Shown: one piece after another, positions 12,365 through 21,666 of the stretch
Position numbering within the stretch: the stretch's first letter is position 1
Layout of the letters: each line of letters starts with the position of its first letter
Assembly (NCBI GenBank): GCA_002067865.1
Contig: MVRC01000010.1
Span: 1 to 54,198, forward strand
Direction of reading: 5' to 3'
Length of the DNA stretch: 54,198 nucleotides
Origin: Methanomassiliicoccales archaeon PtaU1.Bin124
GTDB taxonomy: Archaea > Thermoplasmatota > Thermoplasmata > Methanomassiliicoccales > UBA472
The notes under the pieces: generated by a model
What the model saw: only the letters and a program-made list of their open reading frames with translations
What the model was told of the DNA's origin: nothing
Databases searched by the model: none
Made by a program: the position numbers and the translations under genes

Positions 12365-13122
12365 TCGCCCTCTCCTCCCCCGCTCTCAGCCTGATGCCCC
12401 TGGCGGAGGCCATTGAACTGGTCGCCAGGGATTTCAAGGCCTGGGAGATCGTGGGGGAGGGAAAACATTTCCTGCCGGACATCGAAAAGGAACTGGCAGG
12501 GTCGCTGCCTTCATATGAATTGGAGATGTCCGTTCATTCGCCGCTCAGCGACATCAACATCGGCAGCCTGAACCCAAGGCTCAGACAGGCTGCGTTGAGC
12601 GACGTGCTACGGACCGTGGAATGCGCTGGCAGGCTAGGATTGAACCCGATCACAGTCCACCCCGGCTTCCTTACGCCGTTGGCCTATTTGGACAGGGAAG
12701 GGGCGAAGAGCGCGACCAAGGACTCTCTGCGGCTGATCGAGAAGGCTGGAAAGGAACATGGGGTGACTGTGGCGCTGGAGAACATGCCGGACATGCCCAT
12801 CTCGATGATCACCACACCCAAGGCCTTGAAGGAATTGCTGGATGGAACGGAGCTCAGCATATGTTTCGACATAGGCCATGCTCACACCACTCACAACGTC
12901 GATGCTTATCTGGAAATGCACGACCGGTTCGCCAACATCCATATCCACGATAACGATGGCAGGTGGGACCAGCATCTTCCGATCGGCATGGGCAGCATCG
13001 ACTTCCCGCCCATCCTGAGGAGGCTGGCATCTTACAAGGGACGATATGTGATAGAGGCAAGGGAACTGAAGGAGGCACCTGGTTCCCAGCAACGCCTGAA
13101 AAGGCTGTTCTCAGAGCTTTAG
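12361..13122 (+). CDS. Sugar phosphate isomerase/epimerase-like TIM barrel protein
   Basis: A 253-residue member of the xylose isomerase-like/AP endonuclease family 2 TIM barrels. Metal-ligand motifs of the fold are recognisable: MSVHSPLSDIN, ITVHPGF, VALENMPD, ICFDIGHAHTT and IHIHDNDGRWDQHLPIGMG (given in pieces). In this family such residues bind a divalent metal at the barrel mouth. The real substrate cannot be inferred; endonuclease IV-like DNA repair and sugar epimerisation share this fold. The missing Zn-cluster pattern and short length favour an isomerase. It is coupled to the UPF0201 gene by an ATGA and overlaps the opposing protease gene by 4 nt. Confidence 0.8.
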   Translation: MIALSSPALSLMPLAEAIELVARDFKAWEIVGEGKHFLPDIEKELAGSLPSYELEMSVHSPLSDINIGSLNPRLRQAALSDVLRTVECAGRLGLNPITVHPGFLTPLAYLDREGAKSATKDSLRLIEKAGKEHGVTVALENMPDMPISMITTPKALKELLDGTELSICFDIGHAHTTHNVDAYLEMHDRFANIHIHDNDGRWDQHLPIGMGSIDFPPILRRLASYKGRYVIEARELKEAPGSQQRLKRLFSEL

Positions 13123-14435
13123 TCCTTCTTACCGCAACGAGTGCAAAATAGCGCTCCATTATCATATCTGGCCTGCGTCCCTCCACACTGTTTGCAGACG
13201 AACGCTGGAACCTGCCCGTGGTAAGTGATGGGTGGTTCGTTTTGTGCCGGGGGTGGAGCAACATTCTGCTGGCCCTGCGAGTACATAACCGGGGCGGGGC
13301 TCGCCTTCTTTACCAGACCTTTGTCGCCCATGAAATCATAGATGCGGAGTAGATAGTAGATGAAGCACGCCAGCCCAATGATGATTATGGCTATCTCCAG
13401 CAGTCCGATGGCCACACCTGAACTTACCGACTTCCCCGCCGCATAATATGGCATGTTGAGGTAATCAACAAAGAAGTGCAGCATGATCGACGCATACAGG
13501 CCATATCTGATGAAGAGGTAGCCCAATGCCAGGCCGGAAGCGAAGGTCGGGATCAGCTTGACCGCGTCCCAACTGGATAGATGGGCCAGGGAGAACATCA
13601 GCGATGAGAAGAGCAGCAGCGCGATCTCCAATTTTCCCAGTTCGAACCCGCCGCCCAGCAGATATCTCTTCGGAGACCTCATCTTCTTCGTGGCCAGATG
13701 TATCACGAGCAAGGGCAGGCCGATCAGCATCACGCGGGACACGATCTCCTCCCAGACCGATGCGCCGGCCAGCGACAACAGCAACGCCCACAATGACTGA
13801 TCGAAGTCCGGAGTGGTGATGCCGATGCCAGCGATCTCGGCTACGATATAGACCAGATAGGTGAAGAAGACCGTGGCGAACATGAGCGTGGCCGTCACGA
13901 ACAGGGGGCTGTGCCCCTTCTCCGGCATCTTGCCGCGCAGCTCATTGAGGAACGGCTTGAAGCTTTCGCGGCCCATGTAGAGGAAAGATATAATGATGGC
14001 CGAGGCAAGGAAGACATAGAACCCGGCCAGTACTATACCCCCGATCCTGTGCAGGACAATCAGCCAGGGCACGATGATGAAGATGGGATAGGTGTGGCTG
14101 GACGTCTCCGGGAAAACGATGGTCGTGCCCCATATCATCAGACCTATGTTGAGTATGCACTCCAGCACGAGAACGAGGATCAGCCAGGCAGTGGCGATGC
14201 TGGTATAGCGGCGGAACTTCTGGAACGGGGTCTCCCTGTCAAAATATGCGTACGGGGGCGGGTACATCACTGGCGTGGTTTGGACGGGGACCTTCGAGGC
14301 GTGATGAGCAGGACGTTCTCCGGTAGATGTCGAAGCACCGCAGTATTGGCAGAACTTCGAATCGGATGGCAGCTCCCGCCCGCAGTTGGAGCAGCGGAGA
14401 CCATCAGGCGACCGTTCCGGTTCGGACCCCTCCAT
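13119..14435 (-). CDS. CPBP (CAAX-protease-like) membrane protein with zinc ribbons at both ends
   Basis: A membrane protein of about 438 residues. Near the N-terminus is a double-CXXC ribbon (CSNCGRELPSDSKFCQYCG). Seven or eight hydrophobic helices follow, and a second ribbon ends the protein (CKQCGGTQARYDNGALFCTRCG, in part). The core carries the CPBP glutamate pair in SVWEEIVSRVMLIGLP, with later histidines in SLAHLSSW and HFFVDYLN. These are the motifs of Abi/Rce1-type intramembrane proteases. Two flanking zinc ribbons are an unusual arrangement. The open frame begins at 14489, but a TATA-like TTAAAAATAT lies inside it at 14459-14468. I prefer ATG 14435, which has a GGATGG upstream. Confidence 0.82.
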   Translation of the reverse strand: MEGSEPERSPDGLRCSNCGRELPSDSKFCQYCGASTSTGERPAHHASKVPVQTTPVMYPPPYAYFDRETPFQKFRRYTSIATAWLILVLVLECILNIGLMIWGTTIVFPETSSHTYPIFIIVPWLIVLHRIGGIVLAGFYVFLASAIIISFLYMGRESFKPFLNELRGKMPEKGHSPLFVTATLMFATVFFTYLVYIVAEIAGIGITTPDFDQSLWALLLSLAGASVWEEIVSRVMLIGLPLLVIHLATKKMRSPKRYLLGGGFELGKLEIALLLFSSLMFSLAHLSSWDAVKLIPTFASGLALGYLFIRYGLYASIMLHFFVDYLNMPYYAAGKSVSSGVAIGLLEIAIIIIGLACFIYYLLRIYDFMGDKGLVKKASPAPVMYSQGQQNVAPPPAQNEPPITYHGQVPAFVCKQCGGTQARYDNGALFCTRCGKKD

Positions 14436-14617
14436 GGTCGCTTCCATCCTACCATTCATATTTTTAATTGCCGGTTTCACCCGGACCATGTATGGTCAGT
14501 CCAATTTTTGCACTATCTGGATGGCCAGCGAGGCCTTCTCCAGATGTCCAGAATCATGCAAACTTTTAATATGCACAGGGGTGTTTCATTTCAAAGCCCC
14601 GCAATGGAGGAAATGAT

Positions 14618-15431: not shown

Positions 15432-15485
15432 CGAGATGTGATATGGCGGTCGTCTACATAAATGCCAGCAGGTAAAGGAACCTAT

Positions 15486-16040
15486 ATGATGAGCCTAGCC
15501 GATGTGCAATCCATGGGCGCGGAGCTGGGGCTGGTCCAAGTCTATACTGGCGAAGGAAAGGGCAAGACCACTGCAGCCTTAGGCCTGGCCCTGCGCGCAT
15601 GGGGCCATGGCCTGCGCGTCTGCATCATCCAGTTCATGAAGGTGGGCGAGGACTATGGGGAGGTCATCGCCTTGCGGAAGATCGAGGGGATCGACATCTA
15701 CCAGTTCGGCTCGGACCATCTGGTCTTCGAAGGGGAGCAGACGGACGAGGATATCGCGTTGGCCGAGAGGGGCCTGAACCTGGCAACGGAGGTTCTGGAA
15801 TCCAATGAATATGACGTCCTGATCCTCGATGAGATCAACGTCGCGCTATATTTCGGGCTTTTGAGCGTCAAGAACGTTCTTACTATGATCAAGAACCGTA
15901 GCGGCGGCATGGAGGTCGTCCTCACGGGAAGACATGCGCCAAAGGAGGTCCTCGGTATTGCAGACCTTGTTACGGTGATGAGGGCAGAAAAACACCCTTA
16001 CGATTCAGGTGTAGTTGCTCGAAAGGGTATCGAATTTTAA
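15486..16040 (+). CDS. cobO: Cob(I)alamin adenosyltransferase (CobA/CobO type)
   Basis: A protein of about 184 residues that transfers adenosyl from ATP to cob(I)alamin or corrinoid precursors. The modified P-loop GEGKGKTTAALG is near the N-terminus. It is followed by IIQFMKVGEDYGE, the acidic LILDEINVALYFGLL motif and VLTGRHAPKEVLGIADLVT. The frame is open from ATG 15462, but AAAGGA at 15472-15477 sits correctly for the ATG at 15486. The gene stands alone among plus-strand genes. An adenosyltransferase implies the cell makes or salvages corrinoid cofactor. Directly at the stop codon a 10-bp unit, CGAATTTTAA, is repeated in tandem. Confidence 0.93.
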   Translation: MMSLADVQSMGAELGLVQVYTGEGKGKTTAALGLALRAWGHGLRVCIIQFMKVGEDYGEVIALRKIEGIDIYQFGSDHLVFEGEQTDEDIALAERGLNLATEVLESNEYDVLILDEINVALYFGLLSVKNVLTMIKNRSGGMEVVLTGRHAPKEVLGIADLVTVMRAEKHPYDSGVVARKGIEF

Positions 16041-16203: not shown

Positions 16204-19200
16204 ATGTCGATGTCGTGTTCAAAGGCGAATATCAGGAAAGCTAAGAAGGCCGTCTCTGATATCATAGGTAATCTTCTGATCCTGGCGATCACGGTCACCT
16301 TGTTCTCGAGCGTGCTTTTCTTTGTCGTAAATCAGCCAGCTCCGCAAAATACCACCTATGCGGAGTTGCAGTTCACTCAGCCAGTGAATGCAAATGAAAA
16401 CTTCTGGGTGAATATCACACACAAAGGTGGCCAGATTCTGGCGAATGAAACCACACTGATAATCATCAATATCAACACGACAACACCGATGGCCCTTCGT
16501 ATCTCATCGAGCACGCCCAGCATCGGCAGCACCTGGACCACAGGTGAGACATGGTGCTATAATTTAGGGGCAGGATATGGAACATCGAACATCTCTGCTA
16601 CCATTGTCGACACCCAGACGAACAACATCGTCTGGCAGTCCGATCTGAATGGCGGGCAATCCAGTGCCTTCTCTCCGATCATCAGTTATAAGGGAACGAC
16701 CCCGAACCCCGCGGTCTCAGGAGTCGCGCCGGAATTCTATGCCTATGTGTTCGACCCGAACGGGGACTCTCTCACAGTGACATTGAACATGACCAATCTT
16801 GGCATCGCCGGTGAGCGGGTCATGTCCGATTCCGACAACGACAACATATATCGTCTGACTTCGCCAGCGGCCGCTGCCGTGGCTTGGAACGGTAAATATG
16901 TGGAGATCACGGCCACCGATTCCACCGGTAAGATAACCAAATCCAGACTGTTCCTCTCTGTCATCACCAGTGGTGGGGGCAGCAGCAGCGATGACTTCTG
17001 GGATAGGTACGGACAATGGTTGGTCGATGGAACTTACCCGCCAGATGCTAGCGGAGGAGAGAGCAGCGGTACTGATGGATCGTTCGGTACATCGTTCTAT
17101 TACGTCAGGAACGCAGCTGATTACAGCATCACAAGGAATTTCAATTCGACCACTGACAGGATATTGGTCGAATTCTACAGTGATTCGTTGCAGAACCTCG
17201 CCATCGAAAATACTCTGATGGTGCTGGACTCAGCCGGCAAGGAGGTCAAACCACAGACGTCATATTCTGCTTTCGGCTATAGTGGTGTCTATGGTACGAT
17301 CTACAAGTACACTTACACCTTTAACGCACCAGATGACAGCGGGATCTACACCTTGAGGATCAAATTAAGGGACAACATCGGGACTGTCATCAACCTAGTA
17401 GATAACATCATCATCAACAATGCTAACACACCGAGGCTGGTGTTCTACAAGGTGAACGAAGACAACTCGATCACCCAGACGAACAGCTTTAACCACACTG
17501 ACACGATCCTCCTCAGGATCTACACGAAGACCACTGGAGCCGATATCACCAAGGTAGGTTTCAGCGACATTGAGATAGCCGATTATTCCGGAAAATATGT
17601 CATAAAGCTCGCGTCCATAACGCCAAGCGTGTCCCCGGCGGACCCGCTGTGGAGCGGGGCGATCACCCAGATCTTCAAGACGGCCGGTATGAGCGCTCTC
17701 CGGGATGCCGACTCTGATATCACCACCGGCATCTATTCCATTCAGATCAAGCCTCTGCTAGCCACTCAGGGATGGTGGCTATCTGGCCGTAACAGTTACT
17801 CATGCAAGATATCCATCTTCACCGACACAGATGAAACGTATGAGCAGATCAGCAAGCAGTTCAACATCTCGGCACCGACATCTACCACAGATATCATAGC
17901 AAGTGTGGGAAAGGGCTCTTTCACATGGAGCGCTTCGGGGGCGTCGTGGTCCGACAATTCCATAGCTTGGTATTCGTTCAAGGAAGGTTCCAGCCAGTGG
18001 CAGAAGTTCGTCATCGATGATTCGTCCTATAAGGGCCCATTGGGCATGTGCCTGACGGATATGGACGGCGATGGATACAAGGATCTCGTGGTCGGGTTCC
18101 AGGACACTGCGGTAGCGGTCGCCTGGTATAGGAATATGAACGTGGATGGTAGTGTATGGTCCAACACTCCGACACTGATCGCGAGCACGTTCGATGCCAA
18201 CCCTGGAACTCAGGCCGCGGGAGGAACCAGCAAGGGTTTGGCGGATGAGGACACTACCGTCTGGTCACATTATGTTTCACCGTGGTTGGGGGAACAGTCC
18301 AACAACTTCTACCCAAGCGGCACAACATATGTCTGTACCAACGAGATAGCCACAGCCATTAGTGCTGGCGATCTGGACCACGATGGATTCATGGATATTG
18401 TGGTCAGCTTCGTTCACTCAGTAACGTATTCCACCGCTGGAAGTACTGGAAGTGCGGATTACTCCAACTCATTCGGTATGTTCTTCAACAGGGGCATCCG
18501 GATCTACTGGTCCGCCTCGCCAGTGGACACTTCGACCCTCCTATACAGTACCAACGACTGGATAACCAGCAACAACGCTAATGATAACTCGAACCCGGGT
18601 GCGATGGACCTGGCCGTAGATGACCTCAATAACGATGGGTGGGACGACATTGTTGCGGTCTACGAGACCGGTACTACCAAGGTCTGGTTGAACCAGTTCC
18701 CCAAGCAGAGCTCTGCGGATTGGACCACGATGAGGACCGAGGCTTTCGGTGCCGGCTCGCTCATCACCGATATCCCGGTCGTGGATGGAACCACTCCCTG
18801 GGGTAATTACGCAGATTCAAACCGCGTTTGGCCTAAGCTTGAGCTGGCAGATGTGAACGGTGACACCTTGGTCGATATCATTCGCACATCCTCGGCTAAC
18901 ACGAAGGTGACAATATTCTACACCCAGTCCAACATGGATGCAGAGAAGATAGCATTTGTCACTGCCGAGAGCGGTACGGCCTTGAGGACCAATGACATGA
19001 ACAATCTGAAGGCCGTCGATGGTGCATTGGAGGTCCTGTCCGATTCATTCGCTTCCGGTGTGAACGCACCATATTATGCCGTTCAAACAAGTTCGGATAA
19101 CACCGGCGGTACGATCGGCAACCTCGCGAACAATGATGGAGTCTACTATACTGTAGCAGGAGTGAATGGAAACCCGAAGAAACAGATGAACCTCAACTTC

Positions 19201-20457
19201 GCCATGACAGGGATGACGAACGACGCCACCATCAGCAGTGTAAGGTTGTACGTCAAATATTACACTGGCAACTCCTATTCTACCAGCAATTGGTTGACCA
19301 TGGTATCTGGTGGAAGCACAACGTCAATATTGCAGATCAACAGCCTATACAAGTCTGCAAACCCGTATACTGGGTATATCGATCTGTATGCGCTGGGCGT
19401 TGATACGTACTCTGAATTGGTCAATCTGAACGTCTACTTCATCAATTCCATGACGAGCAGCAATTCCGCGTATTCTGTCTACTTCGATGTGGTTCGCGTC
19501 GAAGTGACGTTCAAGTCCTGGTCGATGGATTGGACCTATACGCTGGCCAACTCAAATGTCTATCCTAATCACTGGCTTGTGGTCAACGCTTCGGCCACAT
19601 CGTCCAATCTGAGCTACACTCCGCAGTTCACTCTGCAGTATTCCTCCGATGGAACGATCTGGACCACGCTAGGAACGATCACCAGCTCGACCGGTCAGAA
19701 CTACACATACAAACTTGCAGCGTCACCGAATGCCAACTACTACGTGCGCATCAAGGACACGCAGACTCTGGCCAACAGAGGAGGTTCGAACTTCACCGTA
19801 TCATTGGACATGGTGATCGTGAACCATTCCAGGGCCGTCAATGATCCGCTGGTCGTATTCTGGACGGCTAATAACAGATACTCCGACTTTGACTTCGTAC
19901 AGCCAACGACGAACATGGCGGCCAGCAGTAGGATCACCTGCATAGCGGTGGGCGACGTCGGTACATACACTTCGGACCCATCCCGTGTAGATGGGCTGAA
20001 GGATATCGTCATCGGGACGACCGATACGGACGGGGTAGGGACTCTATATGTGGCCATCCATAAGATCGGAGCTTTCGTCACTCCTACTGAGATACCGACC
20101 ACCGCCTTGGCGACAAAGGTGGGCAGCAATACTGCGATCTTCCGCACGACCGATGTCGAGATCGGTGACTTCAACGGAGACAAGTACACCGATATCGTCC
20201 TCATGATCGGCTACAACTTCGGCAGGCAGGAATCCAACCCGACGACCCCTACGATATGGGTCTATACCAACCAGGCGAACCCGACCAGCATTCAGTTCAC
20301 CGAACAGGCGTTGAACGCCATGGTGACTGGTGAATCGGGCATCAATGTCGAGACCGGCAATGTGGACCTGTCCATACTGTTGCCGTTCGCCAGCCTGATC
20401 GGTATACCGGCCGCCGTGGTCATACTGGATCGCAAGGAGAAGAAGGGCAAGAAGTAG
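16204..20457 (+). CDS. Giant surface protein: type IV pilin-like N-terminus with FG-GAP-like repeats
   Basis: A 1417-residue predicted extracellular protein. It opens with a class III (prepilin-type) signal: basic KANIRKAKKA, then VSDIIGNLLILAITVTLFSS. FlaK/PibD-type cleavage is expected after KKA, as in archaeal pilin N-terminal domains. A beta-rich, Asn/Thr/Ser-heavy body follows. Calcium-binding-like FG-GAP/VCBS repeats are at about residues 619 (DMDGDGYKDLVVG), 724 (DLDHDGFMDIVV), 807 (DLNNDGWDDIVA), 883 (DVNGDTLVDII), 1262 (DGLKDIVIG) and 1322 (DFNGDKYTDIVL), probably blades of a beta-propeller. A C-terminal hydrophobic helix (ILLPFASLIGIPAAVVIL) and basic tail suggest a second membrane anchor. 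A role in adhesion or cell-surface structure is inferred. It is transcribed alone, with GGR 15 bp downstream. Confidence 0.85.
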   Translation: MSMSCSKANIRKAKKAVSDIIGNLLILAITVTLFSSVLFFVVNQPAPQNTTYAELQFTQPVNANENFWVNITHKGGQILANETTLIIININTTTPMALRISSSTPSIGSTWTTGETWCYNLGAGYGTSNISATIVDTQTNNIVWQSDLNGGQSSAFSPIISYKGTTPNPAVSGVAPEFYAYVFDPNGDSLTVTLNMTNLGIAGERVMSDSDNDNIYRLTSPAAAAVAWNGKYVEITATDSTGKITKSRLFLSVITSGGGSSSDDFWDRYGQWLVDGTYPPDASGGESSGTDGSFGTSFYYVRNAADYSITRNFNSTTDRILVEFYSDSLQNLAIENTLMVLDSAGKEVKPQTSYSAFGYSGVYGTIYKYTYTFNAPDDSGIYTLRIKLRDNIGTVINLVDNIIINNANTPRLVFYKVNEDNSITQTNSFNHTDTILLRIYTKTTGADITKVGFSDIEIADYSGKYVIKLASITPSVSPADPLWSGAITQIFKTAGMSALRDADSDITTGIYSIQIKPLLATQGWWLSGRNSYSCKISIFTDTDETYEQISKQFNISAPTSTTDIIASVGKGSFTWSASGASWSDNSIAWYSFKEGSSQWQKFVIDDSSYKGPLGMCLTDMDGDGYKDLVVGFQDTAVAVAWYRNMNVDGSVWSNTPTLIASTFDANPGTQAAGGTSKGLADEDTTVWSHYVSPWLGEQSNNFYPSGTTYVCTNEIATAISAGDLDHDGFMDIVVSFVHSVTYSTAGSTGSADYSNSFGMFFNRGIRIYWSASPVDTSTLLYSTNDWITSNNANDNSNPGAMDLAVDDLNNDGWDDIVAVYETGTTKVWLNQFPKQSSADWTTMRTEAFGAGSLITDIPVVDGTTPWGNYADSNRVWPKLELADVNGDTLVDIIRTSSANTKVTIFYTQSNMDAEKIAFVTAESGTALRTNDMNNLKAVDGALEVLSDSFASGVNAPYYAVQTSSDNTGGTIGNLANNDGVYYTVAGVNGNPKKQMNLNFAMTGMTNDATISSVRLYVKYYTGNSYSTSNWLTMVSGGSTTSILQINSLYKSANPYTGYIDLYALGVDTYSELVNLNVYFINSMTSSNSAYSVYFDVVRVEVTFKSWSMDWTYTLANSNVYPNHWLVVNASATSSNLSYTPQFTLQYSSDGTIWTTLGTITSSTGQNYTYKLAASPNANYYVRIKDTQTLANRGGSNFTVSLDMVIVNHSRAVNDPLVVFWTANNRYSDFDFVQPTTNMAASSRITCIAVGDVGTYTSDPSRVDGLKDIVIGTTDTDGVGTLYVAIHKIGAFVTPTEIPTTALATKVGSNTAIFRTTDVEIGDFNGDKYTDIVLMIGYNFGRQESNPTTPTIWVYTNQANPTSIQFTEQALNAMVTGESGINVETGNVDLSILLPFASLIGIPAAVVILDRKEKKGKK

Positions 20458-20472
20458 GGGCCACGTCGTTTC

Positions 20473-21666
20473 ATGAAAGAATACGATGTAGTGGTCTCAG
20501 GTGCTGGCCCAGCGGGAGCTATGGCGGCATATCACTGTGCGAAAGCGGGGCTTACCACATTGCTGGTGGAGAAGGACCTGGCTCCCCGCGACAAATGCTG
20601 CGCCGGAGGGCTGCTCGGTCGTGCCGAGGGACTGCTGGATTTCCCTGTTCCGAAGGAGATCATCCGAAGAAGGATCGATTCCATCGGTATCACTGTGGAC
20701 GGGACCAGAGAAGAGGTCCCCACAGGCAGGTCCACCGCCGCCACCATTGATAGGGGAGAGTTCGATCAATATCTCACGAACAAAGCTGGTGACGTCGGGG
20801 CAGAGGTCATCCTAGGGAGGAAGGTCGGCAGCATCTCCGAACAGGATGAGCGCGTCATCGTCCGAGTCGGTGATATGGAGGTCCGCTGCCGATCGGCCAT
20901 CGTTGCTGAAGGAGTGGCGAGCCACAATGCGAATAAATTGTTCGGTCCAAAGCCATCTGGATATCTCGCCGTAGGTGCAAGGGCGAAGTTCACCACGAAG
21001 GACCAGCTGCCCGATTCCCTGGACTTCTACTTCATCGACACTCCCACGAAAGGGATCCAGTTCGGTAGACGGTTTCCAGTAAATGGCTGGATGTTCCCAG
21101 GAATGGATGGAGGGAACATCGGGGTATGCGGTACTGGCCTGGGGAGAGGTACCATCGAGCATCATCTGCAAAGGATCGAGTCCGACATGGGGCATCAGGG
21201 CATCTCGATATCGAGAGGCCCGACCGCCACCTGGCCCGTTCCATTCCGCCCCCGCAAAAGGCTCGTTTCCAGAAGATGCGTCGCGATCGGAGACGCCGCC
21301 GGGTTCGCCAGTCCCTTGAGCGGGGAGGGAATGACGTACGCCTTCAGGAGCGGCAGGTTCGCCTCCGACAGTATCAAGGAGCTGCTGAACGGCGATGCCA
21401 ACGACCTAAGGGGATATTCCCGTTCATGCCAGGACAGCATCGTCCGGGACATTCGGGCGGCCAGCCTGATAGGTCCGGTACTTCATTGGCTCATCGGCGT
21501 GGTCGATACGAAGCATTTCTTCAGCGTCATCCGCGAATACGACGACCTGATGGGAACGATGGTGAACATTGCTTTGGGGGATCAGGACTGGCGCTCTCTG
21601 GCCCTGCAGACGATACCGGATTTCCTGCCGCTGTTCCTCTCCTCCCTGCCTTCAGATAAGGCCTAG
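20473..21666 (+). CDS. Geranylgeranyl reductase family FAD oxidoreductase
   Basis: A 397-residue flavoprotein of the archaeal geranylgeranyl reductase family, which saturates the isoprenoid chains of membrane lipids. The Rossmann motif is VVVSGAGPAGAMAA (residues 6-19). The Cys-containing DKCCAGGLLGRA is the family's substrate-side motif, and the second FAD motif is AIGDAAGFASPLSGEGMTYA. Family members also act on quinone or chlorophyll-type prenyl chains, so the exact substrate is open. A UbiA-type prenyltransferase gene converges on it with a 15-nt overlap, which supports an isoprenoid role. It starts 15 bp after the giant surface protein gene. Confidence 0.87.
   Translation: MKEYDVVVSGAGPAGAMAAYHCAKAGLTTLLVEKDLAPRDKCCAGGLLGRAEGLLDFPVPKEIIRRRIDSIGITVDGTREEVPTGRSTAATIDRGEFDQYLTNKAGDVGAEVILGRKVGSISEQDERVIVRVGDMEVRCRSAIVAEGVASHNANKLFGPKPSGYLAVGARAKFTTKDQLPDSLDFYFIDTPTKGIQFGRRFPVNGWMFPGMDGGNIGVCGTGLGRGTIEHHLQRIESDMGHQGISISRGPTATWPVPFRPRKRLVSRRCVAIGDAAGFASPLSGEGMTYAFRSGRFASDSIKELLNGDANDLRGYSRSCQDSIVRDIRAASLIGPVLHWLIGVVDTKHFFSVIREYDDLMGTMVNIALGDQDWRSLALQTIPDFLPLFLSSLPSDKA

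Follow-up and report, generated by a model that had tools for sequence, protein, structure and literature searches.

The locus described here raises a question about the nature of its product: is a protein of well over a thousand residues that begins like a pilin really a pilin, or does it only borrow a pilin-like signal? The gene lies at 16204..20457 (+) of the window, that is, the whole stretch of 54,198 nucleotides that was analyzed, which matches in named genomes place among the methane-producing archaea of the order Methanomassiliicoccales, class Thermoplasmata. The ORF starts with ATG, encodes 1417 aa in one unbroken frame and occurs in only one copy in its own genome. No RNA element and no tandem DNA repeats were found in the region of the gene. 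A viral origin was also considered, and it was rejected because no encoded relative turned up in viral contigs.

The protein begins with MSMSCSKANIRKAKKA and continues with VSDIIGNLLILAITVTLFSSVLFFVV. Its first 16 residues (...KAKKA; 16204..16251, +) form the n-region of a class III signal, with a prepilin-peptidase cut predicted after A16, directly ahead of position 16252. Pfam analysis placed Pilin_N (PF07790) on residues 15-92 with an E-value of 1.7e-12 (48.4 bits, against a curated cut-off of 25.2), which, on an intact ORF, bears out the class III signal that the original prediction had assigned to this 1417-residue chain. A profile of the N-terminal part also matched the solved archaeal pilin PilA2 of Natrinema (PDB 8gi2; residues 11-149, E 1.9e-5) and two more archaeal pilins, and the predicted model of this part (pLDDT 71, pTM 0.50) contains a helix at 7-42 and strands at 54-149, followed by beta-sandwich domains. 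In every relative that we read, residue -1 is G or A and both V17 and S18 are invariant; the cleavage sites of Haloferax volcanii PilA pilins have been reported as RAVS and DAVS (PMC4371748). Two relatives (G035 and G038) carry, in the syntenic slot of the giant gene, a stand-alone pilin homologue of ~150 aa that ends at query residue ~150, in the gene order AP endonuclease, CAAX protease, [CYTH], pilin, HTH and Cdc48. Because these stand-alone pilins stop there, we fixed the boundary of the pilin module at ~150. Thus, the Pilin_N match, the PilA2 profile match, the strands of the model and the ends of the stand-alone orthologues delimit a predicted module at 16252..16653 (+), with a hydrophobic helix from V17 to ~42 and a seven-stranded beta head extending to ~150.

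Judged from its sequence, the N-terminus of the giant protein is a whole pilin domain and more than a pilin-like signal. The earlier suggestion that the helix may just anchor the protein has lost ground, given that conservation spans the whole pilin head and that only Gly or Ala occurs at residue -1. The accompanying assumption that pilin-type N-termini are normally found on proteins of 100-300 residues was too narrow, since class III N-termini also occur on large proteins. They have been reported for sugar-binding proteins of Sulfolobus at least four times the size of a pilin (PMC4371748; PMC4187195) and for bacterial modular pilins (PMC8179133).

Downstream of the pilin module, a beta-sandwich or Ig-like stalk is predicted at residues ~151-560 (16654..17883, +) from the model and from Foldseek matches, which include tandem Ig-like chains, SiiE and SbsB with low TM-scores. 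An FG-GAP propeller-like region then occurs in two parts. The first covers residues ~558-908 (17875..18927, +) with four Ca-type loops at 619, 723, 807 and 883, and the second covers residues ~1241-1370 (19924..20313, +) with loops at 1251 (long) and 1322. Between them lie inserted beta-sandwich domains, residues ~909-1240 (18928..19923, +; edges set by the repeats and the model), which weakly resemble galactose-binding and CBM32 modules (PF22633 at E 0.0057, under the cut-off; YeCBM32 at E 0.007). Both FG-GAP_3 (E 3.6e-18) and FG-GAP (E 1.3e-12) scored above their curated Pfam cut-offs, and the motifs at 611-648, 719-744, 801-831, 877-908, 1244-1290 and 1316-1357 flank the insertion. The chain ends with a hydrophobic helix at residues ~1389-1409 (20368..20430, +), a predicted membrane anchor, and a basic tail, KEKKGKK (20431..20454, +), which is predicted to be cytoplasmic. 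Since the stand-alone pilin of the same slot ends where the graft begins, we read the giant, by its homologies, as a modular pilin, composed of a pilin module, an Ig-like stalk, an interrupted FG-GAP propeller-like head and a C-terminal anchor. As expected of a modular pilin, the module is separable from what is grafted onto it: it has stand-alone orthologues, and the histories of module and head, described below, are independent.

For the head, a calcium-dependent propeller with at least six DxDxDxxxD-type repeats had been proposed. We found five strict loops, at residues 619, 723, 807, 883 and 1322. In 2000 shuffles that preserved composition, the average was 0.14 and no shuffle had more than 2. 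The number six is reached only if a longer, degenerate loop (D1251...D1267) is counted; both of its Asp residues are invariant across 14 relatives. Calcium loops in the head are strongly supported by the sequence, and the repeats make a propeller fold likely. A closed, seven-bladed propeller is only suggested by the AlphaFold model of residues 553-1417, which is all-beta with moderate confidence (pLDDT 71.5, pTM 0.59) and among whose best Foldseek matches are DDB1, sialidase, CRTAC1 and integrin alpha-V, at TM-scores of 0.1-0.2. In Foldseek searches with whole models, most matches were multi-domain all-beta proteins at low TM-scores, and such matches are not enough to establish the fold.

The search for the same architecture in relatives, proposed as a check in the original prediction, gave matches by protein search in 40 of 61 related genomes, many of them at full length (37-43% identity over ~1400 aa), and 129 invariant positions are common to 20 full-length sequences. 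Pilin_N and FG-GAP are both present in all 14 of the family members that were aligned. At the level of sequence, the same architecture has been conserved throughout the Methanomassiliicoccales. Searched with a profile built from residues 1-575, 264 of 400 genomes of the class gave matches, in open frames of up to ~2670 aa, and the giants recovered from the 18 profile-matched loci that we read share the VS[DE] motif and a long hydrophobic helix. In much of the class, the giant pilin locus has as its neighbour a CAAX-type protease whose N-terminus bears a zinc ribbon (13119-14489, -, in the window). The upstream neighbour in the window, the cobalamin adenosyltransferase CobO (15462..16040, +), is syntenic in many relatives.

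The giants have two head types: type A, to which the window protein belongs, has the C-terminal helix, and type B does not. In most type A relatives the next gene after the giant is a geranylgeranyl-reductase-like gene; in the window this FAD-dependent reductase (20473..21666, +) begins 15 bp downstream, and the two genes are possibly co-transcribed, as their spacing may suggest. Type B relatives are ~1260 aa long and occupy the same slot as the giant in several genomes; in G005, type B stands in tandem with type A, and in G028 it is found at a locus separate from A. The pilin modules of A and B in G005 are 58% identical and are each other's best match. Their heads scarcely align, the B head giving at most 52 bits with any A and being closest to the type B head of G002 (683 bits). 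In the head tree, A and B form separate clades (100/100). The pilin tree rejects a B clade, with p-AU values of 5.5e-6 for the first 165 residues and 5.7e-5 for 270 residues, for a B group that was chosen after the first tree was seen. Because the head tree splits A from B while the pilin tree rejects a B clade, pilin modules and heads have, on this phylogenetic evidence, recombined. Stem gene conversion between paralogues residing in one genome, one of which was then lost, would explain the trees as well as direct head swapping does. In a 53-row tree, several rows labelled as being without the C-terminal helix come from assemblies with truncations, frameshifts or gaps (L006, L022-L025), and for this reason we did not use the label count of this tree (8 changes). 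A broader reading, which we offer tentatively and at less than even odds, is that one class-wide pilin-bearing locus shows exchangeable giant ectodomains (a bare form, A with its second-helix tether, and B) that are reshuffled by recombination, and that the pilus machinery displays these large adhesins, with A not being released into the filament.

As to its role, we propose, with a probability of roughly 65%, that the giant is a modular type IV pilin serving as a cell-surface adhesin or receptor. The chain would be exported via the Sec pathway, and the A24-type prepilin peptidase of the same genome would cleave it after A16. The mature pilin helix would then reside in the membrane, where it may interact with the TadC/PilB pilus system, and outside the cell the Ig-like stalk would bear a propeller-like FG-GAP head, stabilised by calcium and carrying a possibly sugar-binding insertion. 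In type A, the second, C-terminal helix would return to the cytoplasm, so that both chain ends are tethered. Given this double tethering, type A would most likely be located at the cell surface or in the pilus base or initiation complex, and would not be a repeating filament subunit. Type B, which has no C-terminal helix, could be located at the pilus tip.

The C-terminal helix was noted in the original prediction, and its hydropathy agrees: the top 19-residue Kyte-Doolittle mean is 2.35 at ~1389-1408, followed by RKEKKGKK, and the relatives with an intact 3' end all keep a hydrophobic helix (means 1.8-2.4) and a basic tail. In the predicted model it has low pLDDT. No comparable helix is present in the intact giants read outside Methanomassiliicoccales type A. 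We also considered whether it is the C-terminal signal of an archaeosortase substrate (PGF-CTERM and similar), and rejected this because an exosortase-family enzyme (PF09721) was found in none of the 61 genomes, with a control genome giving a signal. These observations bear on the main rival to the adhesin proposed above, namely that the giant is a true pilus component that becomes part of filaments, at the tip for instance, with its C-terminal helix removed or tolerated. In favour of this, the pilin module is complete, and neither type B nor the remaining class members that we read have the C-terminal helix. There is also a bacterial analogy, in that modular pilins have been modelled at pilus tips and a tip position has been proposed for PilB and PilC of Streptococcus sanguinis (PMC8179133). 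However, every intact type A relative has the hydrophobic helix and basic tail, and no enzyme of the exosortase family that might remove it was found in the 61 genomes. The helix would hinder polymerisation, and filament formation by type A appears doubtful; we regard incorporation into filaments as unlikely.

Genes for pilus machinery are present in the same genome as the giant. One contig (C15) encodes a prepilin peptidase homologue with SDWRTR and GGAD, both catalytic Asp motifs, which was missed by Pfam A24 alone and was recovered with a relative's protein as the query. Another (C7) encodes a PilB-type (PilB3-like) ATPase with PilB3_C and two TadC proteins, and a small PilA-like pilin is encoded as well. 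Together with the whole pilin domain and the stand-alone orthologous pilin of two relatives, the peptidase, ATPase and TadC genes uphold the original view that a large pilin-stemmed surface protein is plausibly linked to pili. None of the giant genes read adjoins pilus machinery genes; archaeal PilA pilins commonly have their machinery encoded away from the pilin gene (PMC4858521). On C7, the ATPase and TadC genes adjoin a gene for a 1953-aa surface protein that has CARDB repeats as well as zinc ribbons and a membrane helix at its C-terminus (L086:4388-10249). The same contig has an MCM-like helicase ORF of 1373 aa with apparent intein-like insertions, as judged by eye from the translation (L087:497-4618).

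We also compared the distribution of pilin-module or giant genes with that of TadC in the 61 relatives. Both were present in 41 genomes and neither in 16, with the giant alone in 1 and TadC alone in 3 (Fisher p 7.6e-11, which overstates the evidence because the genomes are related and not independent). The three TadC-only genomes are all 79-82% complete, and in the single giant-only genome, G053, the giant is of type B and no TadC was detected. G022 has one T2SSF match of other architecture and was scored as being without TadC. In G026, the giant, TadC, Pilin_N and the peptidase have all been lost. Most genomes of family f2 (probably Methanomethylophilaceae) have no Pilin_N proteins, pilus-type TadC or giants and keep a divergent prepilin-peptidase homologue; in one f2 genome (G054), pilin module and TadC are both retained. 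An envelope scaffold or S-layer-like protein, doubly membrane-anchored and using the pilin module for export and anchoring alone, would suit the size of the giant, its Ig-like stalk and its two membrane helices. The S-layer protein SbsB is among the Foldseek matches, and Methanomassiliicoccus luminyensis has an electron-dense outer layer that is not a described S-layer (PMC4243693). Nevertheless, the giant is missing where TadC and Pilin_N are also missing, including G026 and most f2 genomes, and stand-alone pilins take its place in the same slot, and we consider such a scaffold improbable. Least probable is a bindosome-like substrate-binding protein whose pilin-type stem offers a sugar-binding head for uptake: the insertion weakly resembles galactose-binding and CBM32 modules and large class III proteins of Sulfolobus provide a precedent (PMC4187195, PMC4371748), but the neighbouring genes scanned include no ABC transporter subunit, FG-GAP heads differ in fold from substrate-binding proteins, and the CBM-like match is under the cut-off.

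The proposed modular pilin is most readily compared with those of bacteria, PilB and PilC of S. sanguinis (PMC8179133), in which an extra domain with a metal-binding, adhesion-type head is likewise grafted C-terminally of the pilin module. The giant differs from them in its archaeal Pilin_N module, which belongs to another pilin family, in its far larger graft, in its FG-GAP/Ig head and, in type A, in the second membrane helix at the C-terminus. With the haloarchaeal PilA pilins, such as Natrinema PilA2 (8gi2), it has the N-terminal family and the reach of the pilin domain in common; the 165 aa of PilA2 end with the pilin head, whereas the giant continues, and the motif is VS[DE]IIGN in the giant and VSPVIG in haloarchaeal PilA. 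PilY1/PilC tip adhesins of bacterial type IV pili are also large and have a propeller domain with a calcium site. However, PilY1 has no pilin module, and no PilY1-family propeller domain was among the Pfam results for the giant or its family members. The Sulfolobus bindosome proteins GlcS and AraS are likewise archaeal proteins of large size, and PibD processes their pilin-type signals, but they have a substrate-binding-protein fold and are thought not to be pilin-derived, whereas the giant has a whole pilin domain.

In the open-access papers searched, we found no earlier description of this architecture. If our reading is right, the modular-pilin strategy described in bacteria reaches a whole archaeal class, and the giant becomes a candidate for mediating contacts in methanogens related to gut strains. 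It would also raise the question of whether a second membrane anchor still lets a pilin use the pilus machinery, and the bare pilin, type A and type B at one locus provide a natural series for comparisons. In some other Thermoplasmata genomes, at L151 (G061) and L141 (G143), two or three giant pilin-module ORFs are clustered side by side.
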